Shown: in pieces, positions 19,069-36,659 of the stretch | Layout of the letters: each line of letters begins with the position of its first letter | Position numbering within the stretch: position 1 is the first letter of the stretch | Translations under genes and position numbers: made by a program | The notes under the pieces: model-generated | Seen by the model: only the letters and a program-made list of their open reading frames with translations | Databases searched by the model: none | What the model was told of the DNA's origin: nothing | Source: Bradyrhizobium sp. AZCC 1610 | GTDB taxonomy: Bacteria; Pseudomonadota; Alphaproteobacteria; Rhizobiales; Xanthobacteraceae | DNA: 64,000 nucleotides | Assembly: GCF_036924515.1 (NCBI RefSeq) | Contig: NZ_JAZHRR010000001.1 | Location: 1,955,001-2,019,000 of the forward strand | Direction of reading: 5' to 3'

Positions 19069-19105
19069 TTTGGAATCTTCCAAGCATTTTTGGAATTGCT
19101 CCAAA
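19069..19105. promoter_or_regulatory. Two tandem TTTGGAA dyads, candidate iron-responsive operator
   Basis: TTTGGAATCTTCCAAG (19069-19084) and TTTGGAATTGCTCCAAA (19089-19105) are two near-perfect dyads whose left ends are exactly 20 bp apart. The second has the 7-3-7 layout of the rhizobial iron control element bound by Irr (TTTAGAA-N3-TTCTAAA), with matching A-to-G and T-to-C changes in the arms. They lie about 300 bp upstream of the TonB receptor start. Binding by Irr or another Fur-family protein is inference. Confidence 0.45.
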
Positions 19106-19375: not shown

Positions 19376-19409
19376 GGGCTACGTGCTGTTGATAAGGGAC
19401 TTTCTCGAA

Positions 19410-21701
19410 ATGCGACGTGCAGGTGGGGTTGGGGCGGTGGCTCGCTTTGGTGCGACACTGCTAGGTGGAGTGGCGTTGTTGGCGTGGTTCGAATCGCCCG
19501 CGCAATCACAAGCACCGCAAGGCGGCAACTCCCTTCCACCCGTTACTGTCGATGCGCCGGCGCAACAGTCAGTCCGCCGCGCGCCAACCAAACGAAGTGA
19601 CGCCCGGGTCCGATCGGCCTCGCGGCGCGCCACGGTGCCTGCCGCCCCGCAGGCCGGCCCCGTCGCGGTGCAATCGCAGCCGTCGCAGCCGGGTGTCGTA
19701 CCCGCCTTTGCAGGCGGCCAGGTCGCTCAAGGCGCGCGGCTGGGAATGCTTGGCAACACCAGCACAATGAAGTCTCCGTTCAACGTGACGAGCTACACGG
19801 ACAAGTTCATCCGGGATCAGCAGGCAGCAACCGGTGCGGATGCCTTGATCCTGGATCCTTCCGTGCGCAGTACCCACCCAACGGGCGGTATAGTCGATTC
19901 CTTCAACATTCGCGGCTTCCCGATCAATGAAGGCAACAATGGTGAGTTCGCCTTCGAGGGTGTCTACGGCATCGCGCCGAGCTACCGCATCTTCACGGAT
20001 TACGTCGAGCGCATCGAGGTGCTCAAGGGTCCCTCGGCCGCGCTCTCCGGGATCGCGCCCAATGGCGGCGTCGGCGGCGTCATCAATGTCGTGCCCAAGC
20101 GTGCCGGAGAGGACCTGACCCGCTTCACCGCGGGTTACGGTTCGGCCTCGCGGTTCGGCGGTCATTGGGACGTCGCGAGGCGCTACGGCGAGGGCAGGGA
20201 ATGGGGCGTGCGCGCCACCGGCAGCCTGCGCGGCGGCGACACGCCGATTGACCGCCAGTCTGAAACGACGGGCGTCGGATCGCTGGCCCTCGACTATCAG
20301 GGCGAACGGTACAGGTCCTGGCTCTACCTGATCGCCCAGACCGACCGGTTCAATGCGCCGTCACGTCCGTTCCTCATGGATCCCCTGCAGCCCAATCTGC
20401 AAGTGCCCAAGGCGCCGGACGGCGGGCTCAACGTGATGCAGCCTTGGGAATGGTCGCGCATCAACGATCAATCCGTCCTGTGGCGCAACGAATACGATCT
20501 GACCGATCAGGTGACGCTGTTCGCCGATGTCGGCGGATCGCACACCAATGTCGAGCGGTTCTTCGGTCTTCCGACGATCACCAGTGCGAGCGGCAACACC
20601 ACCTCGACGCCGCAATTCTTCGGGCTCAGCATCGATCGGCACACCTATGATGGCGGCGTCCGCGCCCGCTTCGATACCGGCTTCGTCCGGCATGCCGTCA
20701 CCTTCCAGGCCTCCGTCTATCACGACGTGCTGCACCGGCGGACGACCAATGGCAGTCCGGTCTCCTCGAACATCTATAGCCCGACTGTCGCGCCAACCCA
20801 GTTTGCGAACGAGATCAGCGATCGCCCCCGGTTCTCGGACAGCCAGCTCACGGGGCTGTCGATTGCCGACACCTTGTCCGTGCTCGACGAGCGCGTCCTG
20901 CTGACGCTGGGCGTCCGGCGCCAGGGCGTCGAGGCGACCAACTATGCCGCCAATCTCGGAACGTTTTCGAACTCCTACGACAAGAGCGCGACCACTCCCG
21001 TGGTCGGTCTCGTCGTCCGGCCCTGGGACAACGTCTCGCTGTACGCGAACTACGTTGAAGGTCTAAGCCGGGGCGATATAGCGCCGCAGCAGGCTTCCAA
21101 CCAAGGCGAAGTGCTCCCGCCTTACATCGCCAAGCAATACGAGGCCGGCATCAAGGTGGACTTCGGCCGGATCGCGACCACGTTCAGTGCCTTCGATATC
21201 TCGAAGCCGAGCGGCGAACTGTTGGCCGGGCGCTTCTCGGCGACTGCCGAAAAGCAGGTCCGTGGGCTCGAGTTCAACGTCTTCGGCGAGCTGAGGCCCG
21301 ATGTTCGTGTCCTCGGAGGCGTTTCGCTGCTGGATGGCACCCTCACGAAGACCGCCATCGCGGCAAACGTTGGCCATACGCCAATCGGCGTTCCGAACGT
21401 CCAGGCCAATATTGGAGCCGAGTGGGATCTCCCGTGGGTGAGGGGGCTCACTTTGAACGGGGCGGTCATCTACACGGGCAGGCAGTTCGTCGATGCCGCG
21501 AACAAGCAGCCGATCCCGGATTGGACGCGACTCGATCTCGGCGCCCGCTACACGACGGCGATCAACGGCAGGAAGACGATTTTCCGCGCCAACGTTCAGA
21601 ATGTGACCGGTGAGAACTACTGGTCCAGCGTGGCCTCATTCGGAACGTTCTTTCTGGGAGCACCGCGCACGTACCTCCTGTCGATGACCGTGGACATGTA
21701 G
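19410..21701 (+). CDS. TonB-dependent siderophore receptor
   Basis: Outer membrane beta-barrel receptor of 763 residues for ferric-siderophore uptake. A signal peptide covers about residues 1-33 (MRRAGGVGAVARFG... to SPAQSQA). A proline/arginine-rich linker follows and then the plug domain, with NIRGFPINEG and the TonB-receptor hallmark RIEVLKGPSAALSG and GGVGGVINVVPKRA. The rest is the 22-strand barrel, ending in YLLSMTVDM. The ATG at 19410 has AAGGGA ten bases upstream; a GTG at 19383 has none. It opens the siderophore locus and is likely specific for the compound made by the genes downstream. Upstream dyads suggest iron control. Confidence 0.93.
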   Translation: MRRAGGVGAVARFGATLLGGVALLAWFESPAQSQAPQGGNSLPPVTVDAPAQQSVRRAPTKRSDARVRSASRRATVPAAPQAGPVAVQSQPSQPGVVPAFAGGQVAQGARLGMLGNTSTMKSPFNVTSYTDKFIRDQQAATGADALILDPSVRSTHPTGGIVDSFNIRGFPINEGNNGEFAFEGVYGIAPSYRIFTDYVERIEVLKGPSAALSGIAPNGGVGGVINVVPKRAGEDLTRFTAGYGSASRFGGHWDVARRYGEGREWGVRATGSLRGGDTPIDRQSETTGVGSLALDYQGERYRSWLYLIAQTDRFNAPSRPFLMDPLQPNLQVPKAPDGGLNVMQPWEWSRINDQSVLWRNEYDLTDQVTLFADVGGSHTNVERFFGLPTITSASGNTTSTPQFFGLSIDRHTYDGGVRARFDTGFVRHAVTFQASVYHDVLHRRTTNGSPVSSNIYSPTVAPTQFANEISDRPRFSDSQLTGLSIADTLSVLDERVLLTLGVRRQGVEATNYAANLGTFSNSYDKSATTPVVGLVVRPWDNVSLYANYVEGLSRGDIAPQQASNQGEVLPPYIAKQYEAGIKVDFGRIATTFSAFDISKPSGELLAGRFSATAEKQVRGLEFNVFGELRPDVRVLGGVSLLDGTLTKTAIAANVGHTPIGVPNVQANIGAEWDLPWVRGLTLNGAVIYTGRQFVDAANKQPIPDWTRLDLGARYTTAINGRKTIFRANVQNVTGENYWSSVASFGTFFLGAPRTYLLSMTVDM

Positions 21702-21950
21702 TCGCTGCGCTTATAGTTCGGTGAGACGCTTCATGGATGCTCGTGATGGCTCGTTCTTTAATGGAGGTGTCGGCGCATTTGTTCGCGCGTTAACCCCGCC
21801 GCTGGACGCGCCGACCGAGCAGCTTGCTCGTGAACAGCCGGCGTGCCTGCAAACCATGTTCTTGTCTCTGTGCATCGGCACCAACGAAGCGGCTCCACCC
21901 TGAAGGCGCTTCATGAACGGTTCCTGCTGACAAAAATCAGGCTGGTCGAC

Positions 21951-22382
21951 ATGCAAGTTTGCCTCCTTTCGCCAACATGCTTGATTCCGACCGAAGAGGT
22001 CGATCTCGACAGGGTAGCGGAGCTCGAAGCGCAAATCCTCCGCACGGGTTACTGGACTGTTCCGATCACGGTGGAGAAGGACGCCCTCTTCGTGATGGAC
22101 GGTCATCACCGGCTGGCGGTCGCGCACCGTCTGCAACTGCCGCTGGTGCCAGTGATTCTCTTGAACTACAGCGCAGTGCGGGTGGAGAGCTGGCGCCCGG
22201 GCCAGACGATCACGCCCGCGTGCATCCTCGCGATGGCGCGCAGTGGCCGAAAATTTCCCTGCAAGACGACGCGACATATTTTTGATCAAGGCCTGCCCAA
22301 TTGCAACCTGCCGTTGGACAGCTTGCGCAACCTTGCTCAGACAGAACGCGCCGTAGCCTATGCCGAAAGGGCGAGGTCATGA
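21951..22382 (+). CDS. SbnI-like ParB/sulfiredoxin-fold protein (putative serine kinase)
   Basis: Small protein (143 residues from the ATG at 21951) of the ParB-like nuclease/SerK family. The core motif DGHHRLAVA, with an upstream acidic cluster (PTEEVD), matches the fold in which SbnI and archaeal SerK phosphorylate free L-serine. In staphyloferrin B biosynthesis SbnI supplies O-phospho-L-serine to SbnA; a SbnA-like enzyme is encoded two genes downstream, which supports the same role. The start is uncertain: an in-frame GTG at 21843 would add 36 residues, and neither start has a strong ribosome site. The stop overlaps the next gene (ATGA). It may also have a regulatory role, as SbnI does in Staphylococcus. 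Confidence 0.8.
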
Positions 22383-23773
22383 CCGTGCATTGCCACAAGC
22401 CCGGCGCGGGCCTCTCACCGATTCTGCGGCCAAGCACGGCGGAGCTCTTGGCTGGCAACGGCCCGCTGCTGATCGATTGGGTCGCCCGACACGGGTCTCC
22501 GGTCAATCTGATCTGGCCCGATGAGCTGCAGAAGAATTTCGCGGTACTCACAGGCGTCTTGCGAGAGAGCGGTGTCGCGCACGCGCTCTATTACGGAGCG
22601 AAAGTCAACAAATCGCCCGGGCTATTGGCGGCAGCTCTGCGCGCAGGGGCCGGCATTGACGTCTCAAGCCTTTATGAGTTGCGAGACGCCAGACGGCTTG
22701 GTGCCGAGGGCGCACAACTTGTGGCGACAGGCCCGGCGAAGACGGCGGCATTCCACAACGAGCTTATCAACTGCAACGCTCTAATATCGGTAGATTCACC
22801 GGAAGAGCTCGAGGATCTGATCCGCTGGCTTCCAGCAGGCGGCGGCCCGGTTCAGGCGGTGCTGCTGCGTTTGCGTCCCACCAACCAGGCGCGGAGTCGC
22901 TTCGGCATGTCGGCGGCGGCCATCCGGCATTGTCTGTCGCGCATTGCTGGCGAAAGCCGGTTGCGCTTTGACGGGCTGCACTTCCACCTGAGTGGCTATA
23001 GCTGGGAATCTCGTGCGCAAGCGATTAGAGAAGTCGCCGGCTTGATCAGCGAATCCCGCGCCCAAGGTTTTGCGCCACGCATGATCGACATCGGCGGCGG
23101 GTTGCCGATCCAATATGTCGATCAACGCGCCTATCAGGCGCATCTCGGGGCACAGATGCCCGAGGACTACCGTACCGGGAAGGTGCCGGCCTCGTTCTAT
23201 CCCTATGGGGGAGGGCTTTCCGCGGCCGAGTGGCTGCGCTGCCTGCTGCGCGCGCCGATGGCCGATGGCCGCAGCTTCGCGGACTATCTTGTCCATGAGG
23301 GGCTGGTGCTGGGGATGGAGCCTGGGCGAGCACTGGCCGATCAGGCCGCGATTTCCGTCTTCAGAGTGTTGCGCGTGAAAGCCGCTGGCCCTGATACCCA
23401 TGTCGTCTTCGTCGAAGGCAGCAGCTTCAGCGCTTGCGAAACCTGGTTTGGCTCCGAATTCCTGGTCGATCCCGTCCTGGTTCCGGCCATATCGCCGCCG
23501 GTCGCCGCAAAACCTATCCGAGGTTATCTGGCGGGCCATAGCTGTCTGGACGAGGACGTCCTTTGCAATCGATGGCTCACCTTTCCCATCGCTCCGCAGG
23601 CGGGAGACCTTCTGGTTTACGCCAACACCGGCGGTTACCAGATGGACCTCCTTGAAAACGAATTCCATCGCCATCCGATGCCGAGCCGCCTTTGCGTGGT
23701 TCAGGATGCAAAAGGGCAGCTAACGCTCGTTCCCGACAAAATAGGAGAGGCACAATGCTCTGCACGACCGTAA
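22379..23773 (+). CDS. SbnH-like PLP-dependent decarboxylase (alanine racemase-fold, type III)
   Basis: Fold-type III PLP enzyme of the Lys/Orn/DAP decarboxylase family, 464 residues from the ATG at 22379, which overlaps the previous stop. The PLP lysine is in [10 protein letters not shown] (about residue 77). Other family elements are HFHLSGYSW, the glycine loop [14 protein letters not shown], and the C-terminal active-site region [13 protein letters not shown]. Its closest functional parallel is SbnH, which decarboxylates a diaminopropionate-citrate intermediate to an ethylenediamine unit during staphyloferrin B assembly. The neighbouring SbnA- and SbnI-like genes make that parallel likely. 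Free diaminopropionate or another amino acid could be the substrate instead. Confidence 0.85.
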
Positions 23774-24765
23774 GCCAGTTGATCGGCCAAACGCCGGTGA
23801 TGCCGCTTGCCGTACCCAACAGCGATGCCACGCTGGTGCTGAAGCTTGAAAAGAACAATCCGGGTGGCTCCATGAAGGACCGCATGGCGCGCAGCATGGT
23901 GCTTGCCGCGCTTGAGGACGGGCGGCTCGCCTCGGGCGGCACGATCGTCGAATCGTCATCTGGAAACACCGGGATCGGACTGGCGTTGGTCGCATTGGAA
24001 TTGGGCCTGCGCTTCATTGCTGTTGTCGATCATCACGCCGCGCCAGACAAGATCCGCATGATGCGCGCGCTGGGCGCGGAAATTCGCTATGTCGAAGGCG
24101 ATTATCGGGAGGACGAGGTTGCGGTGGTGGAGCGCCAGCGGCTGGCCGCCCAACTCGGTGCCCAGCTTCCTGATGCGTTGTTCATGAACCAGTCCGACAA
24201 TCCGGCAAACCCGGAAGGCTATGCCGGTTTCGTCGAGGAACTCCTGGCACAGCTTCCAGACGGCGTCGACGCCTATGTCGGCTGTGTCGGTACTGGCGGA
24301 TCAATGACCGGTATCGCCCAGCGTCTGAAGCGGGTTAATCCTGCTGTCCGAACGATCGCTGTGGAACCGGCCGGCTCGATCGTCTTCGGCAAACCCGGCC
24401 ATCCCTACTACCAGTCGGGCACGGGAACGCCCGCCGGCGATGAAATCGGCAAGGTGCTCGACTATGGATGCATCGACGAAGGGGTACAGGTCACCGACAC
24501 CCAAGCCTTCGAAACAGCACGTTTTATCGCGCGGCGCCACGGGCTTCTGGTAGGGGGCTCGACCGGGGGCACCATCTACAAGGCACTGGAATTCATTGCG
24601 GCCGGCAAGCTGTCCGGCACGGTGGTCACGCCCGTTGCCGACGGCGGCGAGAAATATCTCAGTTCGGTCTTCGACGATGAATGGATGGCCAAGCGCGATT
24701 TGTTTGATCCGACAATCGTCGAACAGCTCGAGGCCTGGCTACCCGGAAGGGCGCGCGCAGCATGA
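23755..24765 (+). CDS. SbnA-like PLP-dependent synthase for the 2,3-diaminopropionate precursor
   Basis: Cysteine synthase-fold PLP enzyme of 336 residues. The PLP lysine lies in NPGGSMKDRMA (about residue 43), with SSSGNTGIG (substrate loop) and the phosphate-binding GTGGSMTG. In staphyloferrin B synthesis SbnA condenses O-phospho-L-serine with L-glutamate to N-(2-amino-2-carboxyethyl)-L-glutamate. The C-terminal region PVADGGEKYLSSVF is shared with that group. ATG 23755 has AGGAGAGG upstream and overlaps the SbnH-like gene by 19 bases. A general cysteine synthase is less likely in this operon. The step that would release diaminopropionate needs a dehydrogenase, and the next gene encodes one of a different family from SbnB. 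Confidence 0.88.
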   Translation: MLCTTVSQLIGQTPVMPLAVPNSDATLVLKLEKNNPGGSMKDRMARSMVLAALEDGRLASGGTIVESSSGNTGIGLALVALELGLRFIAVVDHHAAPDKIRMMRALGAEIRYVEGDYREDEVAVVERQRLAAQLGAQLPDALFMNQSDNPANPEGYAGFVEELLAQLPDGVDAYVGCVGTGGSMTGIAQRLKRVNPAVRTIAVEPAGSIVFGKPGHPYYQSGTGTPAGDEIGKVLDYGCIDEGVQVTDTQAFETARFIARRHGLLVGGSTGGTIYKALEFIAAGKLSGTVVTPVADGGEKYLSSVFDDEWMAKRDLFDPTIVEQLEAWLPGRARAA

Positions 24766-25901
24766 AGGTGACGATCTGCGGTGCAGGGCGCACTGGGCAT
24801 TTGAATGCCGTGCTCTTCAAGCAGCGTCCAGGTATCACTGTTTCCGTGCTGACGGGAGCGGCTGCCGTCGTCGATCGGTGGACGAGCGGAGACGGTGTTT
24901 GGTGGGCCCAGACGCCGGACGGCCACGTCTTGAGCGGGCGGCCCGACTATGTCGGCACCGATCCGAGTGAGGCGCTCATAAACACGGACATGGTGATCGT
25001 GACGCAGCCGGCCCACGCGCGGTCTGCGCTTCTACACGACTTCGCACGGCATCTCCCCCGGGACAGGCGCGTCTACGTCGGCGCGATTCCCGGCTTTTGC
25101 GGCTTCAACTGGCTCGCAGCCAAAACCCTTTCGGGCACAGACAATGTGGTGATCTGGGGCATGAAGGACGTGCCCCATACGGCGTTTGACCTGGTCCCGG
25201 GCGAGCGGGTGCGCATGGGAGGGGCCAAGGCTCAGCTCTTCGCGGCACTTCATCGCCGCGAAACCGCAGCGAGCCGCGCCAAGCTCCAGGCGATGCTGAG
25301 TCGCCTTTATGAAGCCCCCGTCACCCTGCTGCAGGATTATCTGGAAATCACGCTGACGCCGGGCAACGCAATGATGCATCCAGCCGTGCTCTATGCCTTG
25401 ATCGGCCCTGGCGCACCCTGGGAAAACAAGCCCTTTGACCGTCCCCTTTGCTGGTGGAGCGATTGCCCGCGCGCCGGCGCCGAATTGCTGGAGGCATGCG
25501 ATGCGGAAAACCAGGCAATCCGCCATGCGGTCGAGTCACGCCTGGGCATTGATCTGAGTTCGGTGAAGCCGCTCCGACAGGAATTGATTGAGGCTTATGG
25601 CAGCCAGATCGGCGACAACCGGACCATGTATACGCTGTTGCGAACTAACCGTGCTTACGCGGGCATTCGCGCCCCACTTGTTCCCAATCCGGACGGGCCC
25701 GGCCTTGTTATCGATCGCGCAAGCCGCGCTTTCCACGAAGACATAGCCTTTGGGCAGGCGCTGCTCGTGGAATTGGCCGCGCGGCTTGAAGTGGCAACTC
25801 CCGCTATCACGAAAACCTACAACTGGGCGCTCAACTACCACGGCGGGTTCACCGAAGGCGCCCCGGCCTGTTTGCCCGCCAACTGGCCGGAGGAAGCGTA
25901 A
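24762..25901 (+). CDS. Opine (octopine/nopaline-type) dehydrogenase
   Basis: NAD(P)-dependent opine dehydrogenase of 379 residues. The Rossmann motif is ICGAGRTGHLNA at the N-terminus. The C-terminal substrate domain has the family pattern EITLTPGNAMMHPAVLY, with the conserved Asn and His. Members join an amino group to a 2-keto acid reductively, or run in reverse; CntM of staphylopine synthesis is a relative. No nicotianamine-synthase-like (CntL) or racemase (CntK) gene is present. Its place directly after the SbnA-like gene (ATGA overlap) is where SbnB would be expected. It could release 2,3-diaminopropionate from the SbnA product, which is itself an opine-like secondary amine, or it could add a keto acid to a diamine to make the final metallophore. 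Both are inferences. Confidence 0.85.
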   Translation: MKVTICGAGRTGHLNAVLFKQRPGITVSVLTGAAAVVDRWTSGDGVWWAQTPDGHVLSGRPDYVGTDPSEALINTDMVIVTQPAHARSALLHDFARHLPRDRRVYVGAIPGFCGFNWLAAKTLSGTDNVVIWGMKDVPHTAFDLVPGERVRMGGAKAQLFAALHRRETAASRAKLQAMLSRLYEAPVTLLQDYLEITLTPGNAMMHPAVLYALIGPGAPWENKPFDRPLCWWSDCPRAGAELLEACDAENQAIRHAVESRLGIDLSSVKPLRQELIEAYGSQIGDNRTMYTLLRTNRAYAGIRAPLVPNPDGPGLVIDRASRAFHEDIAFGQALLVELAARLEVATPAITKTYNWALNYHGGFTEGAPACLPANWPEEA

Positions 25902-27790
25902 TGGACGAGAGGATGTCTTCCTCGGCAGATGCCGAAGCTCGGGCGCATTCCGCGCAGCTTCGGTTGGGCGCATCGCGCAATGCGCTCAACCGGTTGGTCC
26001 GCTGCCTGTTTGCCGAACGTCTTCTTGAACCGGATGCATTATTGTGGGCGCGCGAAGGCAACCAGGCATGGCTCCCCCTTTGGCAGTCACGCCGGGTCCT
26101 GCATTTCACCGACCTGCGTCGTGCGCCTGCCGGAACATTGCAAAATCGTGGTTCTGTCGAAGTACTGGACGAGACCGGTGCTCGGTACCGGATCGATGAT
26201 CCCTCCGACCTCATCGGACAGGTCGCGCCCGCCTTGGCGATCGCGCCTGCATCGGACGGCGTCCAGCATCTAATACGCGACGTCGAGGACAGCATGCGCA
26301 ACGACGTCCTGGCGCGTCGTCACCGGGAGCACTGGAGCGTCGAGCTGCGAGGGAAAGTAGCTGAAGCAGGCGCGCAGGGATTCCTCGCATATCTGGAAAA
26401 GAGCCTGCCGCCGCATCTGGCGGCCATGACTCTCGATCAGTGGGGCGCGCTGGAAGGTCACCCCTTCTATCCGACATGGAAGGCTAAATCCGACCTGTCA
26501 CCCGAGGACGTCACTGCTTTGTCGCCGGAGTTCGGTGCTCGCGTGCGCGTCCGAGTCGCAGCGCTGCGCAAGGAATGGTCCTTTGTGGAGAAGATGCCAC
26601 ATGTCGGCAGCTATTCGGATTGGTTCTCACAAAATTTCCCGGAGCTCTGGCGCGATTGGGCCGAAGGATTGAATAAACGTGGAAAGTCTCCTGAGGACTG
26701 GCTGCCTCTACCTGTCCATATTTGGCACCTTGACAACTTCGTGCGCCGTGAATTCGCGTCCGAAATAACTTCCGGAGTTTTCGACCCGGATGGCCCGGAG
26801 GTCGTGACGCTGCCGTCAATGTCGTTCCGCACGATGCTGCCGGACACACAGGAGCCGAGACCCTTTATCAAACTCCCGGTGGCGATCTGGATGACCAGCG
26901 AACAGCGCACTCTGCAGGCCAAGTCGATTCACATGGGGCCGCGTCTCAGCACCCTGATTTCCGATATTCTGTCAAAAGACAAGGATCTTTATGACAGGTT
27001 AGAGATCTTCACCGAAGAGCTGGGCGCAATCCTGCACCACCCCGTAACGGGCGACGAGCATCCGGGCCGCTTTCTTTCGGTCGTCTACCGCAACTCCACC
27101 GCTCTGGCGCGAAATGATGGACTGCTCTCGGTCACCGTCGCGGCACTCTTAGCGGCAAGCCCGATCGATGGCCGCCCGCTCATTTGCGAATTGATCGCGA
27201 GAAACGGCGATGAAAGTGAAGCAGCCGTATCTGCGTTCTTCCGTGCATATGTGAGGACCGTCATCGGCCCAACGCTCGCCATGTATCTGCTTTACGGAAT
27301 CGCCTTTGAGGCGCATCAGCAAAACAGCACGATCCTGTTCGATGAGGCCGGCCGCCCGAGAAAACTGTTGATCCGTGATTTTGGCGATGGCCGCAGTTTT
27401 GCACCCCTGTTTAAGGAACGAGGGCATCACCTCAAGCCCTTCACTCGCACGGGGATCTTACCCACTACATTTGATGACGATATAAGTCTCGTGCGCTCAT
27501 TTGTCATTGATGCCTGCTTCGTCTGCCACCTTCATGAGGTCGCACTGTGCCTCGACGAACAATATACAATGTCGGGCACAAGCCCTTGGCGCATCCTGCG
27601 GGAAGAGGCCGAGGCAGTTTTCGACGCGCTCAAGCCGCGCATGTTGTCAGACGCATTCTGGCTGGAAGAACGCAAGGCCTTTCTTGAGAAACCCTGGCCG
27701 AGCCGCTCGGTGCTGCGGATGCATCTGGAGCGTTATCACGACTATCGGGTTGAGCACGAACTTCCAAATCCACTGGCGGGAGCGGAATGA
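25901..27790 (+). CDS. IucA/IucC-family NIS siderophore synthetase
   Basis: ATP-dependent, NRPS-independent siderophore synthetase of 629 residues that forms an amide between a carboxylate (typically citrate) and an amine. The family motif [16 protein letters not shown] is at about residues 187-202, and the nucleotide-binding segment [18 protein letters not shown] at about 320-337. The C-terminal FhuF-like part contains [18 protein letters not shown]. The start ATG overlaps the stop of the opine dehydrogenase by one base. It is the only NIS synthetase in the locus, whereas staphyloferrin B needs three and aerobactin two, so the product should contain few amide bonds. The amine is probably derived from diaminopropionate. 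Confidence 0.93.
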
Positions 27791-29016
27791 CAAATGCTTC
27801 TGTCGCGTTTCGCGGCTTCGGACCTGTTTTTATTTTGTTGTTCGGGCTGCAATTCATTTCCATGGGCGCCATGGAAATGAGTGGTCCATTCTGGCCAATC
27901 CAAATCAAGGTGTTGAGCCCTTCCGACAGCGTCTTTGGACTCGCAGGCGTTGGTGTCTACGTTGGCCCGATGATTGGCATGTCGTTGACCAGCGCCTTTT
28001 GGGGGCGAATGGGCGATCGCTACGGCAATCGGCTGATGATGGTTCGGGCGCTCGGCGGTCTAGCGGTCACGCAACTACTTGTTGCTGTCGCACAGGATGT
28101 CTGGACGATCATGGCGCTGCGTCTCTTGCAGGGCGCCTGCGCCGGGTATATCGCCCCAGCGCAGGCCTATGGCGTGCAGATTACCGGCGGAAAGGATCGC
28201 GCCAGCCTCTTCGCCTGGCTTCAGGTTGCCACCAATGTGGGCTCGATGGGCGGCGCGTTCCTAGGCGGGCTCATTCTCGATTCCTTTCCTTTTGCCGCAA
28301 TAAATCTGACCGCTGGGGCAATTTGTGCGCTGTGCGCTGCTGTTGCCTGGTTGAGCCTGCCCGTACCGACGCCAGGAACTGTTGCCGCCAATCCCGGAAA
28401 CGCGGGTACCGCAAGACCTGCGGCGTCGACAGGTGCTCCGATCGCAGCTCTTCTTGCCTTGATGGGGATGCTGCTTGCCAGCCGCATGGTCCTGCAGGTT
28501 CCTTTCTCACTGTACATGACCCAGGTATTTGGTGCCCGGCACTGGGTCGCTGGCCTCACTTACGGGCTGCTGGCGTGCGGCTTTGTTGTGGCCGCGCCGC
28601 TATGGGCGCGGCTCTTCGAGAATCGAACGCCATCCTATGTGCTCGGCGGGAGCGCGCTAATTTCGGCTGCGTGCGTTTTGGTTACTTATCTGGCCGGCAG
28701 CACGAGCTCCGTTGCCGTATTCGCGTTCCTGTATTTTATCTGGGGCATTCTTCTTGGAGGAACGACGCCGGTCCTTCTTGCGCTCATTTCGGTAGCCGTG
28801 GCTAATGATCGGCAAGGTTCAGTTCTGGGCCTCGCGCAAGCTTGCCAGCAGGGCGCTTCCGCGAGCGGCATCGTTGCCGGCGTCGTGATCACCCAGCTCT
28901 TTGGTCTCGAAGCCGCTTTCCCGCTCGTCGCCACGCTTTACGCCTTGTCATTTTTGTTGGCTCTCGGCATATGGCTCAAAACTTCGCAGCCCACTCAAAA
29001 AGGAAGCCAGCCATGA
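27787..29016 (+). CDS. Major facilitator superfamily transporter, probable siderophore exporter
   Basis: Inner membrane protein of 409 residues with about 12 hydrophobic helices. An MFS loop-2/3 motif is visible as [13 protein letters not shown] (about residue 75), with a matching region in the second half. It overlaps the synthetase gene (ATGA), and exporters of this type are common in NIS siderophore operons (for example SbnD). Its role here is therefore likely secretion of the finished compound to the periplasm. Import of another solute cannot be excluded. A low-complexity Pro/Ala/Thr stretch lies in the central cytoplasmic loop. Confidence 0.9.
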
Positions 29017-30185
29017 CGGAACACCGATCGCTGCTGCTTGCCGCGGTGACGGCTATTGTCCTGATCGCTTTGCTTCCAACAGCAGCATTTGCGGGCAAGC
29101 CTGGACTGACACGGGCGCAAGCGCCGCTTACGCTCACTGATATCGCGGGCCGCCAGGTGACGCTTAACGCGCCCGTCAAGCGCATGCTTCTGGGTGAAGG
29201 CCGGCAGCTCTATCTCGTCGCATCGCTGGAACCCGAAGATCCTCTGGCCCATGTGGTTGCCTGGCGCACCGATCTGATCGTGGCCGACCCGACCACTTAC
29301 GCGCAGTATCTCGAAGTGTTTCCCGAGTTGGCGAAGCTCCCTTCCTTCAAGGGCCAAGAGGACAGCCTGATCGACATCGAATCGGCGATCATCCAGAAGC
29401 CTGATGTGGTGCTGCTCAATCTTGAAGCCATGCAGGCCAACAAGGACGCCAACTACATCGAGAAGCTCGCGGCACTGAACATACCGGTTCTTTATATCGA
29501 TTTTCGCCACCGCCCTCTGGAAAACACCGAGCCGACCATTCGGCTCCTGGGTAGGATCATGGGGCGTGAGGCGCGTGCGGAGGAGATCATCGCATTCCGC
29601 CGCCAAGCTATGGCTGCGGTTGCCAACGTCCTCGCCGCCAAACAACCGAAACGCCCCAATGTATTCGTCGAACGGATCGGTGGCTACTCGCAGGATTGCT
29701 GCCTATCTTTCGGCGCAGAGAATTTCGGCAAATATGTCGAACTCGCCGGCGGCCATAATATCGCCAGCGACATCATTCCTTCGACCTTCGGGCAGATCAG
29801 CCCCGAACAGGTTATCGTCGCCGATCCAGAACATGTAGTGGTTACCAGCGCCGACTGGAAAGCCTATGTGCCCGGCGGCCACTGGATTCCGCTCGGACCA
29901 GGGGCGGATCCTCGGGTGATGCGCAAGAAGCTCGAATGGTTCGTTACTCGCGACGCCTATACCGGTATCGCGGCAAAGAGGACGCGGAATTTTCACGGCA
30001 TTTGGCACCAGTTCTACAATAGCCCATACGAATTTGTTGCCGTCCAACAATTGGCGAAGTGGTTCCATCCCGACCTATTTGCCGATCTGGATCCCAATGC
30101 GACCTTTGCCGAATACCATCGTCGCTTCCTGCCCATAAACTACCGGCCCGGCTATAGCATCAGCCTTTCCGACAGCCAGCGATGA
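29013..30185 (+). CDS. Periplasmic iron-siderophore binding protein (FecB/FepB family)
   Basis: Substrate-binding protein of an iron-complex ABC importer, 390 residues. The signal peptide covers about residues 1-27 (ending AAFAG). The Peripla_BP_2 fold follows: [30 protein letters not shown] and the second lobe. The double Cys in YSQDCCLSF is unusual and may form a disulphide. ATG 29013 is preceded by AAAGGAAG and overlaps the MFS stop. It is followed by its permease and ATPase genes, which complete an uptake system beginning at the TonB receptor. Confidence 0.9.
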
Positions 30186-31249
30186 CAGATCTCCATACCG
30201 AAGCGCTGACCTTAGCCGGACGCGACGCCTATCAAGCGCTCAGCGTCAGACGGTGGATCGTTCTCCTTGTGCTGGCGGTCGGGGTTTGCATCGCATTGGT
30301 CGGCGACCTTTCGACTGGACCGGCCAGCTACGGGCTTGGAGAGGTTGTGCGCACGCTCGTTCTGCCAGCAGAGGCGGATGCGCAGATGCGCGTCATAGTT
30401 TGGTCGATCCGCATGCCGTCGGCCCTTATGGGCGTCGTGGTCGGCGTGGCGCTTGCCATCGGCGGCGCGCAAATGCAGACCATCTTGAATAATCCACTGG
30501 CGAGCCCATTCACGCTGGGCATTTCCGCCGGTGCAAGCTTCGGTGCGGCCCTTGCACTCGCCTTCGGTGTCGCGCTGGTTCCCATGGCAGGGGACTACAT
30601 CGTCGCGGCCAATGCTTTCGTCATGGCCATGGCAACCGCCTTCTTGATCCATTTGGCCAGCCTTCGGCGCGGAGCGTCGATCCAGGTGATCGTGCTTTTG
30701 GGCATAGCGCTGGTTTTCAGTTTCAATACGGCCCTCGCCATCATTCAATATTTCGCCGCCGAGCAGGCGGTCGCGGCCATCGTCTTCTGGACCATGGGCA
30801 GCCTCACCAACGCAACATGGCCCAAGCTCGCCATTACCGCGATCGTCGTGGGTCTAACCTTGCCGGTCTTTCTGCGCCGCCGGTGGCAGTTGACGGCCTT
30901 ACGTCTTGGCGAGGCGCGCGCGGCGAGCTTCGGCATTCCCGTGCGGCGCCTGCGGCTCGAAACCCTGATCCTTGTTTCCCTTTTGACGGCGATCCCCGTC
31001 GCGTTTGTCGGCACGATCGGTTTTATCGGTCTCGTTGGCCCGCACATCGCCCGCATGATGGTCGGCGAAGACCAGCGCTTCCTGCTGCCCGCGAGCGCGC
31101 TGACTGGTGCGCTGATCATGTCGTTCAGCTCCATCTTGGCCAAAATCGCGGTACCCGGGGCCGTCCTGCCGATCGGCATTGTCACCTCAGCGATCGGATT
31201 GCCGGTCTTCCTGTATTTGATCCTGAAAAGCGGAAGAGAGATATGGTAG
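30182..31249 (+). CDS. FecCD-family ABC transporter permease
   Basis: BtuC/FecD-like permease of 355 residues with about ten transmembrane helices. Characteristic stretches are SIRMPSALMGVVVGVALA, GGAQMQTILNNPLASPFTLGIS and the EAA-like loop FIGLVGPHIARMMVGEDQR. It probably works as a homodimer, since a second permease gene is absent. The start overlaps the binding-protein stop (ATGA), and it overlaps the ATPase gene by 7 bases. Confidence 0.93.
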   Translation: MTDLHTEALTLAGRDAYQALSVRRWIVLLVLAVGVCIALVGDLSTGPASYGLGEVVRTLVLPAEADAQMRVIVWSIRMPSALMGVVVGVALAIGGAQMQTILNNPLASPFTLGISAGASFGAALALAFGVALVPMAGDYIVAANAFVMAMATAFLIHLASLRRGASIQVIVLLGIALVFSFNTALAIIQYFAAEQAVAAIVFWTMGSLTNATWPKLAITAIVVGLTLPVFLRRRWQLTALRLGEARAASFGIPVRRLRLETLILVSLLTAIPVAFVGTIGFIGLVGPHIARMMVGEDQRFLLPASALTGALIMSFSSILAKIAVPGAVLPIGIVTSAIGLPVFLYLILKSGREIW

Positions 31250-31995
31250 TGCTGAGCACGCATCGCCTCGGCGCCCGCTTTGGATCACGCCAGGTACTAC
31301 GTGATGTGACGCTTCCGCCCTGTCATGGCGGCGAGGTGGTGGCCGTCATTGGACCGAATGCTGCGGGCAAGTCGACGCTGTTCCGGCGTCTGGCAGCCAT
31401 TCTTCCGGGGCCCGGCGAGTGCCGATTGGAGGGTGTGCGCGATGTAGATCGCGCCGTCGCCTACATGCCTCAGGACCAAACGGCAAGCGCAGTGCTGACT
31501 GTATTCGAATCCGTCCTTCTTGCGCGCAAGCAGGTGAGCGGCTGGCGTCTGGAGAGTTCTGATCTGGTAGCGGCGGAGCAGGCGCTGGCAGCACTCGATA
31601 TAGGCGATCTTGCCAATGAAATCCTTTCCGAACTGAGCGGTGGACAGCGCCAGCTCGTCGGGCTTGCCCAATGTCTTGTGCGCGAACCGCAGGTGCTGCT
31701 CTTGGACGAGCCGATCAGCGCGCTGGACATGCACCGCCAGTTGGAAGCGATGCGGCAGGTGCGCAGCCTTGCGCATGACGACGGTATGCTCGTGCTGATC
31801 GCGCTGCATCATCTCGACCTGGCACTGAAATTCGCCGACAAGGTCGCTATCCTCTCTGATGGGACGTTGCACGATTTCGGCACGGCGGCTGGTGTCCTGA
31901 CGCCGGAAAACCTTGCCGCAACCTTTCGCATTAGGGCACGTGTCGAATTCTGTTCGCAGGGCAAACCACATTTGATCGTCGACGACGCGATCTGA
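31243..31995 (+). CDS. Iron-siderophore ABC transporter ATP-binding protein
   Basis: ABC ATPase of 250 residues energising the FecCD permease. Walker A is GPNAAGKST (37-45), the signature is LSGGQRQ, Walker B is VLLLDEPISALD, and the H-loop is HHLDLAL. The start ATG at 31243 has GGAAGAGAG directly upstream. It is the last gene of the coupled siderophore operon. The following ~210 bp has no clear terminator. The usual length for FepC/FecE proteins is 250-270 residues, so it looks complete. Confidence 0.94.
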   Translation: MVVLSTHRLGARFGSRQVLRDVTLPPCHGGEVVAVIGPNAAGKSTLFRRLAAILPGPGECRLEGVRDVDRAVAYMPQDQTASAVLTVFESVLLARKQVSGWRLESSDLVAAEQALAALDIGDLANEILSELSGGQRQLVGLAQCLVREPQVLLLDEPISALDMHRQLEAMRQVRSLAHDDGMLVLIALHHLDLALKFADKVAILSDGTLHDFGTAAGVLTPENLAATFRIRARVEFCSQGKPHLIVDDAI

Positions 31996-32207: not shown

Positions 32208-33355
32208 TTAGGCGACCAGCTTGAGCTTTTGCCGCTTTCTTTCGGGCGGCTGCTCGCCCGACGTATTCTTGCGCGGCTTGAGGAAGTCAGCCCACGCCTG
32301 CAGCGCCTCGCGGCGCCGCCGGATCATCTCGCTGTCCCAATACGATAGTTCAGCCTCATCGCCGACGCGGTGCGACAGGCAGAACTCGAGCACTTCGCGG
32401 CGGAAATTGTGCTCCTTGTTGTCAGCGCCCCAATTTCGGAAGCTCGTGCGGCAGCCATGCATGGTGGATTTGACGGCAGTGCGCTCGATGGCCCCCACAA
32501 GCGCGTTCGCCCGGAACGGCTGATGTTGCTCGGCGTGGTCGGAGGGGAACACGTACTTATCCGTGCGCGCATCGATTGGATGATCTCGATGGCCTGATCT
32601 GACAGCGGGACGAGATGCGGCTTCGACTCTAGCTCGCCCTTAATCTTCATCTTCTCAGCCGGAACCATCCACGTCCTTGCTTCGAAGTCGAGCTCCGTCC
32701 ACTCCATCAGCCGGATTTCTTGGCTCCGCGACACGGTGAGGATGCCGACTTCTGTGCAGCGCGCGGCGTTGCCGAGATCATAGCGCAGCCCTGTCATCAT
32801 TTGCGGCATCTTCGTATATGGCGCGGACCGATGCCCCTTCTTACGATTCAGCTTGCGGGGCGACGGCAGCAGGTGTTTCAGGTTGCCGCGCCATGCGGCC
32901 GGGTTCTCGCCCGTGCGCAGTCTCAACGCTTTGGCCGCGTCCATCAGCCGCTCGATCCGCTGGCGCGTCCGTGACGCTGTAATCGGCTTCACGGTCCAGA
33001 TCGCCTTGAGCGCCTCCAACACGTGCTCGGTGGTGATCTCCTGGAGGTTCTTGTCGTGCAGGCTCGGCACGTCCCGGACGGAGCGCCGCCACTGCTTCAA
33101 CTCCTCTTCGGACAGCCCCTGGCACCAAACAGGGTACTGCTCCTCGGCAAACTCCTTGAACGTCTTGCTGCCCTGAGCGGTGGCCCGCTTCTTGACGCGC
33201 GGATCGATGCCCTCGCGCTTCAACCCGACCTTATAGTCGCGCGCCTTTTCGCGCGCGCTGCTGAGGGTCAGAACGTCACCGCTTGCGCTGTCGCGGTCGC
33301 CAGCCCTGGCGAACTCCATTTGCGCCCGCTTGCCCTCGAGGTCGGTGAAGCGCAC
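32208..33355 (-). pseudogene. P4-type tyrosine recombinase (integrase), frameshifted and N-terminally short
   Basis: Minus-strand integrase split between two frames. The upstream part (from 33355) covers the SAM-like core-binding domain and the start of the catalytic domain, with the first catalytic Arg in SRSQEIRLMEW. Near 32555-32580 a one-base change shifts the frame. The downstream frame reads DKYVFPSDHAEQ and then the box MHGCRTSFRNWGADN and SHRVGDEAELSYWDSEM, matching the His-x-x-Arg and C-terminal regions of P4-like integrases. The usual ~55-residue N-terminal arm-binding domain is largely missing. It is probably inactive unless the frameshift is a sequencing error. It lies next to the excisionase-like gene at the right edge of the 31-kb segment. 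Confidence 0.85.
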
Positions 33356-35395: not shown

Positions 35396-35594
35396 TCATA
35401 ATTTGCATACCGTCCGGGCTGTCGGAAGTCCTGGCAAGTTCGAAATTGGTTGAGAGTGCCGAGGAAGTGGTCGACCGCGGATGGCTCTTCAAATCGGGCT
35501 TCGAGAAACCGGTGCACGGGGATAACGCAGCCGTGGCCGAATCCGGAGCCTGGTGCAACGACTTAGACGGTCGTTGGCACAAAGGAGAGCTCCG
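35396..35594 (+). ncRNA. Non-coding left end of the IS110-type element, candidate bridge RNA region
   Basis: About 200 bases lie between traF and the transposase, with no gene. In IS110-group elements such as IS621 the non-coding end upstream of the recombinase encodes a structured bridge RNA. Length and position fit, and the sequence has several short complementary stretches, but no fold was computed. If the element belongs to the IS1111 group, the RNA would instead lie downstream. Confidence 0.35.
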
Positions 35595-36659
35595 ATGAAA
35601 CTTTACGTTGGATTGGACGTCGGCCTTGAGGAAACCAGTCTTTGCGTTGTCGACAGCGAGGGCCAGACGGTGCGCGAGCTGAAGGTTAGCACGGAGCCGG
35701 AGGCGATCCGCTGCGCTCTTGAAGGCTCCGCGGATCGCCTCGATCGCGTGGGCGTCGAGGCGTCCTCGCTGGGCATCTGGTTGTACCGCGAATTACAACC
35801 GGTCGGGATCCCGATCATCGTTGTCGAAGCCCGCCATATGCGCGTTTCACTGTCGACAATGCGCAACAAAACCGACCGGAACGACGCGCGCGGCATCGCA
35901 CAGATGATGCGCCTGGGCTGGTACCGCGCCGTTCACGTCAAGAACATCGACATGCAGAAGGTGCGTACGCTGCTGGCCAATCGGAAGCTGCTCAAACGCA
36001 AACTGATCGACATCGAAAACCACATTCGTGGGGCGCTGCGGGCCTATGGGTTACTGGTTGGAGCCGTCGCTCGAGGTGCCTACGAAGCACGCATTCGCGA
36101 GCTGCTCGAACGTAGCGATCCGATTTTCGCGATGACCATCGAAGCCATGCTCGACGTGCGGCGAGCGATCTTCGAGGGCTACGAGCGGTTACATCGCGTG
36201 CTCCTGCAAGTGGTCCAACATGATCCGGTCTGTCGGCGTCTGATGACGGTTCCCGGCGTCGGGCCCGTTGCCGCTCTTTCGTTCAAAGTGGGGTTAGATG
36301 ATCCCCGACGCTTTGCGCGATCTCGAACGGTCGGAGCGCATTTTGGCCTGACGCCGAGGCGACATCAGTCTGGAACGTCGATCGACTATGAGGGCCGCAT
36401 CAGCAAGCAGAGCGACGTTGCGGTTCGGGAGGCGCTATGCGAGGCGGCCGCAAGCCTGTTGCTACGGGTCAGGAAATGGTCGGCATTGCGGGCCTGGGGC
36501 CTGCGGATCGCCAAACGGTCGAGCATGCTGTGCGCGATCGTCGCGGTCGCGCGCAAGCTTGCCGGTATCCTGCACAGGATGTGGGTCAGCGAAACCGACT
36601 TCCACGTCGGGTTCGGCGCCAAGGTCACGCAACGATTGCGATTGAGGCCTGCACAGTAA
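35595..36659 (+). mobile_element. IS110-family transposase (DEDD recombinase)
   Basis: Complete transposase of 354 residues. The RuvC-like DEDD domain at the N-terminus shows Asp8 in YVGLDVG, the Glu in RVGVEASS, and the pair in NKTDRNDAR. The C-terminal Transposase_20 domain has LMTVPGVGPVAALSF and, with the likely nucleophile Ser, RRHQSGTSID. ATG 35595 is preceded by AAAGGAGAG. It sits between traF and the relaxase gene, and the genes normally found there are absent. Element ends were not defined, as IS110 elements lack clear terminal inverted repeats. Confidence 0.9.

Follow-up and report, generated by a model that had tools for sequence, protein, structure and literature searches.

The window analysed here is a stretch of 64,000 nucleotides of Bradyrhizobium sp. 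AZCC 1610, positions 1955001-2019000 of its 7.75 Mb single-contig genome, and the subject is a predicted siderophore operon within it. Ten intact, co-directional genes, all open, span 19383-31995 on the forward strand. A TonB-dependent siderophore receptor (19383..21701; TIGR01783 at 295.8 bits, cut-off 223.5) precedes an SbnI/SerK-like free L-serine kinase, the proposed supplier of O-phosphoserine (21951..22382), and a Y4yA/SbnH-like pyridoxal phosphate (PLP) decarboxylase (22379..23773; PF02784), whose relatives are annotated as Y4yA family PLP-dependent enzymes. These are followed by an SbnA-like PLP beta-substituting synthase of CysK/CBS type, homologous to y4xP (23755..24765; TIGR03945), an octopine/nopaline-type opine dehydrogenase (ODH) homologous to y4xO (24762..25901; Pfam Octopine_DH), and a single synthetase of the nonribosomal peptide synthetase (NRPS)-independent siderophore (NIS) class (25901..27790), an IucA/IucC and FhuF-like relative of y4xN and PbtA scoring 153.8 bits against PF04183 and 126.6 bits against PF06276, both over cut-off. 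Export and uptake are represented by a major facilitator superfamily (MFS) exporter (27787..29016; PF07690), whose top NCBIfam model, the rhizoferrin exporter FslB, falls below cut-off, a periplasmic siderophore-binding protein (29013..30185; PF01497), a FecCD-type ABC permease (30182..31249; PF01032, 260.3 bits), and an ABC ATPase (31246..31995; PF00005). With the starts chosen here, neighbouring genes from the decarboxylase through the ATPase share a few bp of overlap. The families recognised by Pfam (TonB receptor, Orn_Arg_deC_N, PALP, Octopine_DH, IucA_IucC with FhuF, MFS_1, Peripla_BP_2, FecCD, and ABC_tran), together with NCBIfam and the open reading frames (ORFs), bear out the gene content listed in the initial annotation: receptor, SbnI-, SbnH- and SbnA-like proteins, ODH, one NIS synthetase, MFS protein, and ABC importer. 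An IucA/IucC-type synthetase standing with export and uptake genes identifies an NIS siderophore pathway.

The SbnI-like protein has no Pfam match, and its match to the NCBIfam SerK model is weak (E 7.4e-8, below cut-off). Its AlphaFold model has a predicted local distance difference test score (pLDDT) of 90.6, and the nine top PDB matches of the model all belong to free serine kinase or SbnI, apart from a single conserved hypothetical protein, with SerK entries containing phosphoserine among the matches. Across 20-21 aligned relatives a glutamate and a DG(H/N)HR motif are almost invariant, and alignment favours a start at 21951 over the GTG at 21843 that opens the longer ORF. The SerK/SbnI fold, the conserved glutamate, and the DGHHR-type motif together characterise a free serine kinase, and the glutamate may be catalytic, by analogy with the SerK E30 mutant entries. 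SbnI supplies O-phosphoserine in staphyloferrin B biosynthesis, and the modelled fold and motifs support the same role for the SbnI-like protein.

The SbnA-like protein reaches 241.7 bits against TIGR03945, the SbnA family model, below its equivalog cut-off of 349.95; the SbnA residues Arg132, Tyr152, and Ser185 are named in PMC12414870. The top PDB match of the NIS protein is AsbB. For the ODH, the nearest PDB structures are octopine dehydrogenase and CENDH, both of which presumably use pyruvate, and entry 3c7d, titled ODH-NADH-Pyruvate, is among the matches. These fold-level hints point to pyruvate as a possible substrate of the ODH.

Conservation was assessed with two peptide patterns of the ODH, run against genome contigs. 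The scan gave 91 relatives, of which the best 80 were kept; the loci were picked by ODH similarity alone, and neighbour counts refer to the sequence stretch examined at each. The decarboxylase, SbnA-like and ODH genes are present in 80/80 loci and the NIS and MFS ORFs also in 79/80, the exception (L057) stopping at a contig end. Such a five-gene set, conserved in loci chosen by ODH alone, is more than chance, and it is the gene set of the y4y-y4x and pbt clusters compared below; the locus is a member of this already known cluster family. Kinase and receptor homologues each occur in 75/80 loci, the binding protein in 49, the permease in 24, and the ATPase in 28. Among the genes queried, decarboxylase, SbnA-like gene, and ODH adjoin in that order in 79/80 loci, with the kinase intervening in four and L053 as the exception. 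No second NIS ORF was found in the 80 loci, and three queries for ornithine cyclodeaminase (OCD), the SbnB family, returned 0/80. The closest named loci are those of Bradyrhizobium, with ODH 81-95% identical in seven; counting this genome, the ODH is sporadic in the genus (6/146 genomes) and occurs in 2/198 genomes of a family-wide sample. Plasmid records matching the ODH number 46 of 72,556, including four distant ones (24-38% identical) and two 4-Mb Proteus records.

Within the strain's own genome, PF02423, the OCD/SbnB family, has 0 matches, which upholds the earlier statement that no SbnB homologue is present. No additional NIS synthetase is present in the operon, as was stated there too; elsewhere in the genome one other IucA/IucC-type gene lies at C1:6451630 (L002), about 4.5 Mb along the contig. 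This gene, whose neighbour encodes a 271-aa protein without a Pfam match, may form a small siderophore locus of its own and was not counted as belonging to the operon pathway. A second Octopine_DH family match, at C1:5637405, is away from both NIS-type genes found. NRPS condensation domains have 0 matches in the genome. In agreement with the initial annotation, no CntL or CntK type was recognised by Pfam or NCBIfam among the ten operon proteins, no genome-wide search having been aimed at these.

A chemically identified producer carries the same kind of cluster. Pseudomonas sp. FEN produces rhizobactin and rhizobactin B (Kugler et al. 2020, PMC7676072). According to that paper, rhizobactin is built from malic acid, lysine, alanine, and ethylenediamine and was originally obtained from E. 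meliloti DM4, and rhizobactin B has citramalic acid where rhizobactin has malic acid; rhbAB homologues are pointed to, and biosynthesis is left for later study (PMC7676072). FEN is one of the 80 loci (L069), and its homologous cluster resembles that of the window in kinase, decarboxylase, SbnA-like enzyme, ODH, single NIS synthetase, MFS protein, receptor, and binding protein, which are 45-70% identical (SbnA-like 70%, ODH 54%, NIS 50%, decarboxylase 50%; for the binding protein the identity covers only 112 residues). The FEN draft genome contains a single IucA/IucC match and a single Octopine_DH match, adjacent to each other and both inside this cluster, so the sole NIS and ODH genes found in the draft of a rhizobactin producer are those of the homologous cluster.

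The FEN cluster differs from the window in carrying two extra genes, for a citramalyl-CoA-lyase-like protein and for a class V aminotransferase, and in having its kinase on the opposite strand. The first of these genes encodes an HpcH/HpaI protein beside the kinase gene; its top NCBIfam model is RipC, a C-C lyase of itaconate degradation, at 160.9 bits against a cut-off of 375, and the protein is therefore a relative and not an equivalog of RipC. We take RipC to cleave citramalyl-CoA, and this sequence kinship makes the CitE-like FEN protein a plausible source of citramalate. Homologues occur in 29/80 loci (21 Pseudomonas, 6 Pectobacterium, one Samsonia, and one Bosea), and one also adjoins a Serratia plasmid cluster, while none is present in the window. 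The class V aminotransferase (SufS/EgtE-like; L069:13305-14495 in FEN) is found in 21/80 clusters including that of FEN, 19 of them from Pseudomonas, and is likewise absent from the window.

From these comparisons the ten genes are predicted to form a complete rhizobactin-type siderophore operon, directing the synthesis of an aminopolycarboxylate carrying a hydroxy-acid amide, a reading to which we assign a probability of roughly 0.87. The SbnI-like kinase would make O-phospho-L-serine, and the SbnA-like enzyme would transfer the serine C3 unit onto the alpha-amine of lysine, whose side chain may or may not carry the acyl group at that point. The Y4yA/SbnH-like enzyme would then decarboxylate the serine-derived part to give N2-(2-aminoethyl)-lysine, and the ODH would couple the new primary amine reductively with pyruvate, yielding the N-(1-carboxyethyl) group that appears as alanine. 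Finally, the NIS synthetase would link the side-chain amine of lysine, as an amide, to the carboxyl on the CH2 side of malate, giving rhizobactin; where the citramalyl-CoA-lyase-like gene is present, it would use citramalate and give rhizobactin B. The MFS protein would export the product, and the receptor, binding protein, and ABC transporter would re-import the ferric complex. Each unit of rhizobactin would thereby have its own enzyme or enzyme set: kinase, SbnA-like enzyme, and decarboxylase for the two-carbon unit with its nitrogen, the SbnA-like enzyme for lysine as its nucleophile, ODH with pyruvate for alanine, and NIS synthetase for the amide. What we infer in this scheme are the substrates, the sequence of the reactions, and which hydroxy acid and amino acid the strain uses; lysine and malate are suggested by homology of the four biosynthetic enzymes to those of FEN (~50-70% identity).

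SbnB would be unnecessary in such a pathway because the nucleophile amino acid remains in the product. The initial annotation had offered two roles for the ODH, and the one in which a keto acid is coupled to ethylenediamine, giving a rhizobactin-like complexone, is well supported by the FEN cluster with its sole NIS and ODH. Its other proposal was that the ODH replaces SbnB. In a pathway of that kind the ODH would cleave the SbnA product oxidatively and release diaminopropionate, and the single NIS synthetase would build a citryl-diaminopropionate or dicitryl-ethylenediamine siderophore. This alternative gains something from the related clusters in which an OCD occupies the ODH slot, and from the FslA-like character of the NIS protein. 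It appears very improbable all the same: FEN makes rhizobactin, and its draft genome shows a single NIS match and a single ODH match. One NIS synthetase combined with FEN chemistry implies most simply that the product retains the amino acid attached by the SbnA-like enzyme. Moreover, the OCD-bearing relatives show no NIS gene in the stretches seen, so that an OCD need not release diaminopropionate for an NIS enzyme, and the SbnA-like protein scores under the SbnA equivalog cut-off.

The identity of the acid and the amino acid is where a rhizobactin reading could be inexact. The same backbone logic with a different amino acid (ornithine, for example) or a different acid (citrate, for example) would give a rhizobactin analogue in this strain, which we consider unlikely though worth keeping in view. 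The NIS protein is only ~50% identical to the FEN enzyme and has FslA as its top NCBIfam model, and the window lacks a CitE-like gene. Against an analogue stand the constancy of the enzyme set across 79/80 loci and the origin of malate rhizobactin in an alphaproteobacterial species, of which one strain, S. meliloti AK83, has a plasmid-borne cluster with no CitE-like gene in the sequence examined. The FslA match points towards citrate, opposite to the placement of PbtA together with Y4xN in NIS type B, as given in PMC11026637. That placement, for which the known substrate is alpha-ketoglutarate, would by analogy fit malate or some other acid that is not citrate.

The metal served by the product was considered as well. 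The ODH shares the octopine/staphylopine fold of the staphylopine, yersinopine, and pseudopaline dehydrogenases, as structure matches show, and the further metals bound by rhizobactin B include Al, Cu, Mo, and Zn (PMC7676072), so an opine-type, staphylopine-like metallophore chiefly for zinc, nickel, or cobalt was weighed against an iron siderophore. Such a function seems scarcely probable, given that the receptor is of siderophore type and the transporter of the FecCD family. In addition, the pbt genes of Proteus are described as iron-repressed with a Fur-box consensus (PMC11026637), and FEN takes up the iron of rhizobactin B (PMC7676072).

Several observations weigh against the rhizobactin-type assignment. 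The kinase was undetected in 5/80 loci within the stretch examined, and the top NCBIfam model of the NIS protein is the citrate-using rhizoferrin synthetase FslA, far below cut-off. The FEN genome is a draft assembly without a completeness figure, and it contains 31 NRPS condensation-domain matches and 3 OCD-family matches outside the cluster. No mutant or enzyme result tying these genes to rhizobactin appears in the accessible parts of the open-access literature examined, and C. mineralivorans, discussed below as a rhizobactin source, is not named among the matches listed (120 proteins) in a protein search with the ODH of a Caballeronia relative (L038). Finally, Y4xP is reported as a cysteine synthase in PMC3973906, which would favour a sulfur-metabolism or opine pathway having no link to siderophores. 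That view is hardly credible for this locus, since the conserved neighbours are an NIS synthetase and, mostly, a siderophore receptor as well, and the SbnA-like and NIS genes co-occur in 79/80 loci.

Upstream and downstream sequence adds regulatory and genomic context. A candidate iron-regulatory palindrome, TTGGAATCTTCCAA, lies at 19070..19083, ~300 bp upstream of the receptor gene; it was found by eye and with one pattern, being the sole match in the window to TT.GAA(2-4)TTC.AA. Similar TTTGGA-type palindromes are present at related loci L003-L006, partly at L007, and not at L008, while an inverted-repeat scan gave no clear iron box. The palindrome presumably resembles an Irr box and may be an iron box of the Irr type. 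A degraded tyrosine integrase (window 32208-33355, reverse strand) immediately follows the operon, and an IS110-family transposase is nearby (window 35553-36659, forward strand); because of these two elements the operon could be part of a mobile island. The window yielded no tRNA genes.

Several known systems were compared with the operon. Staphyloferrin B (sbn) resembles it in the SbnI-, SbnH- and SbnA-like enzymes and in NIS chemistry, but sbn has SbnB and three NIS synthetases (SbnC, SbnE, and SbnF), whereas the operon has no SbnB, one NIS synthetase, and an ODH. Membership in the staphyloferrin B class was rejected on the absence of SbnB and of extra NIS genes and on the SbnA-like score below the equivalog cut-off. 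Loci for ethylenediaminedisuccinate (EDDS) follow a related logic, in which an SbnA-like enzyme and a decarboxylase act with an OCD-type reductase. Three related clusters (L098 in Aureimonas, L099 in Rhodococcus, and L103 on an M. intracellulare plasmid) likewise combine an SbnA-like enzyme and a decarboxylase with a reductase, but they have an OCD in place of the ODH, a MATE exporter, and no NIS gene in the stretches seen, which suggests the same core with a different reductase. An annotated ParB/SbnI-like kinase gene is present in the Aureimonas cluster and not in the other two; all three OCD-decarboxylase-SbnA-MATE clusters are candidate loci for EDDS-like chelators. The operon has the ODH instead of the EDDS-type OCD reductase, consistent with the zero counts for PF02423 in the genome and for OCD in the 80 loci. 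If the rhizobactin reading holds, ODH and OCD reductases fill the same slot in aminopolycarboxylate loci, which is useful for mining chelators resembling ethylenediaminetetraacetate (EDTA). Zincophore loci of the cnt type share the ODH fold with the operon and differ in the nicotianamine-synthase-like CntL.

Rhizobactin 1021 (rhb) has the name and the NIS chemistry in common with rhizobactin, but it is a structurally different hydroxamate (PMC7676072) and was rejected as the product on that account. The genes for rhizobactin are still confused in print, the PMC7676072 text with its rhizobactin 1021 homologues included: a 2025 paper (ISME J, PMC12815270) applies the name rhizobactin to the hydroxamate of S. 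meliloti 2011, and a 2022 review (PMC9694258) counts rhizobactin among the hydroxamates but tabulates it as a catechol. With Caballeronia the comparison bears on priority. Locus L038, from another Caballeronia, carries the full gene set, and the Caballeronia rhizobactin region is thus likely of this cluster type. In work published in 2023, targeted mutants of the NIS gene region together with liquid chromatography-tandem mass spectrometry (LC-MS/MS) are said to have shown rhizobactin. By its title (Blanco Nouche et al. 2023, AEM 89:e00453-23, as cited in PMC12943173), that work presents rhizobactin as a siderophore of the NIS class from Caballeronia mineralivorans PML1(12). If the Caballeronia region is of this type, the link from genes to rhizobactin was probably already published in 2023, and the novelty of the present assignment is limited accordingly.

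The closest counterparts in gene content are two described clusters, and they show that the initial annotation, which was aware of no such locus, was wrong on this point: by its own provision a known cluster of the same content counts against it, here at the gene level. The S. fredii NGR234 genes y4yB-y4yA-y4xP-y4xO-y4xN-y4xM correspond to six of the operon's genes, in unchanged order, with ODH 77.6% identical. Flanked by nopX and nopL, they sit within a type III secretion region (L101, pNGR234a 84142-97278) and differ from the window in that the stretch seen contains neither receptor nor importer genes. PMC3973906 calls them a 'curious group' of enigmatic role, with y4xP flavonoid-dependent, and PMC10970691 mentions a second y4y-y4x copy on pNGR234b. 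The proteobactin operon of Proteus mirabilis (pbtA-I) matches the window in NIS synthetase, TonB receptor, decarboxylase, PLP enzyme, ODH, MFS protein, and binding protein, and differs in having its NIS gene first and an extra CitE-like PbtI (PMC11026637). This gene content was confirmed in the sequence of another Proteus strain (L105), where a kinase homologue was also found. PMC11026637 gives the product as a predicted hydroxycarboxylate only and describes iron chelation as lost only when pbt and nrp are both disrupted.

These comparisons suggest a wider proposal, which we hold with somewhat better than even confidence: that an alpha-, beta-, and gammaproteobacterial cluster family, often plasmid-borne, is the rhizobactin pathway, that it fuses an EDDS-like module, with ODH in place of OCD, to an NIS synthetase, that the products of the proteobactin and y4y-y4x genes are rhizobactins, and that presence or absence of the CitE-like gene predicts citramalate or malate. 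Among the matches listed, the accessible open-access text gives no link between the FEN genes, proteobactin, or y4y-y4x and a rhizobactin pathway; the derivation of FEN's rhizobactins, proteobactin, and the y4y-y4x product from one family, with the CitE-like gene as citramalate marker, may therefore be new. If correct, the proposal would predict the structure of proteobactin, provide a gene marker for the citramalate variant, and offer a likely function for the enigmatic, flavonoid-responsive y4y-y4x genes in the type III secretion region of S. fredii.

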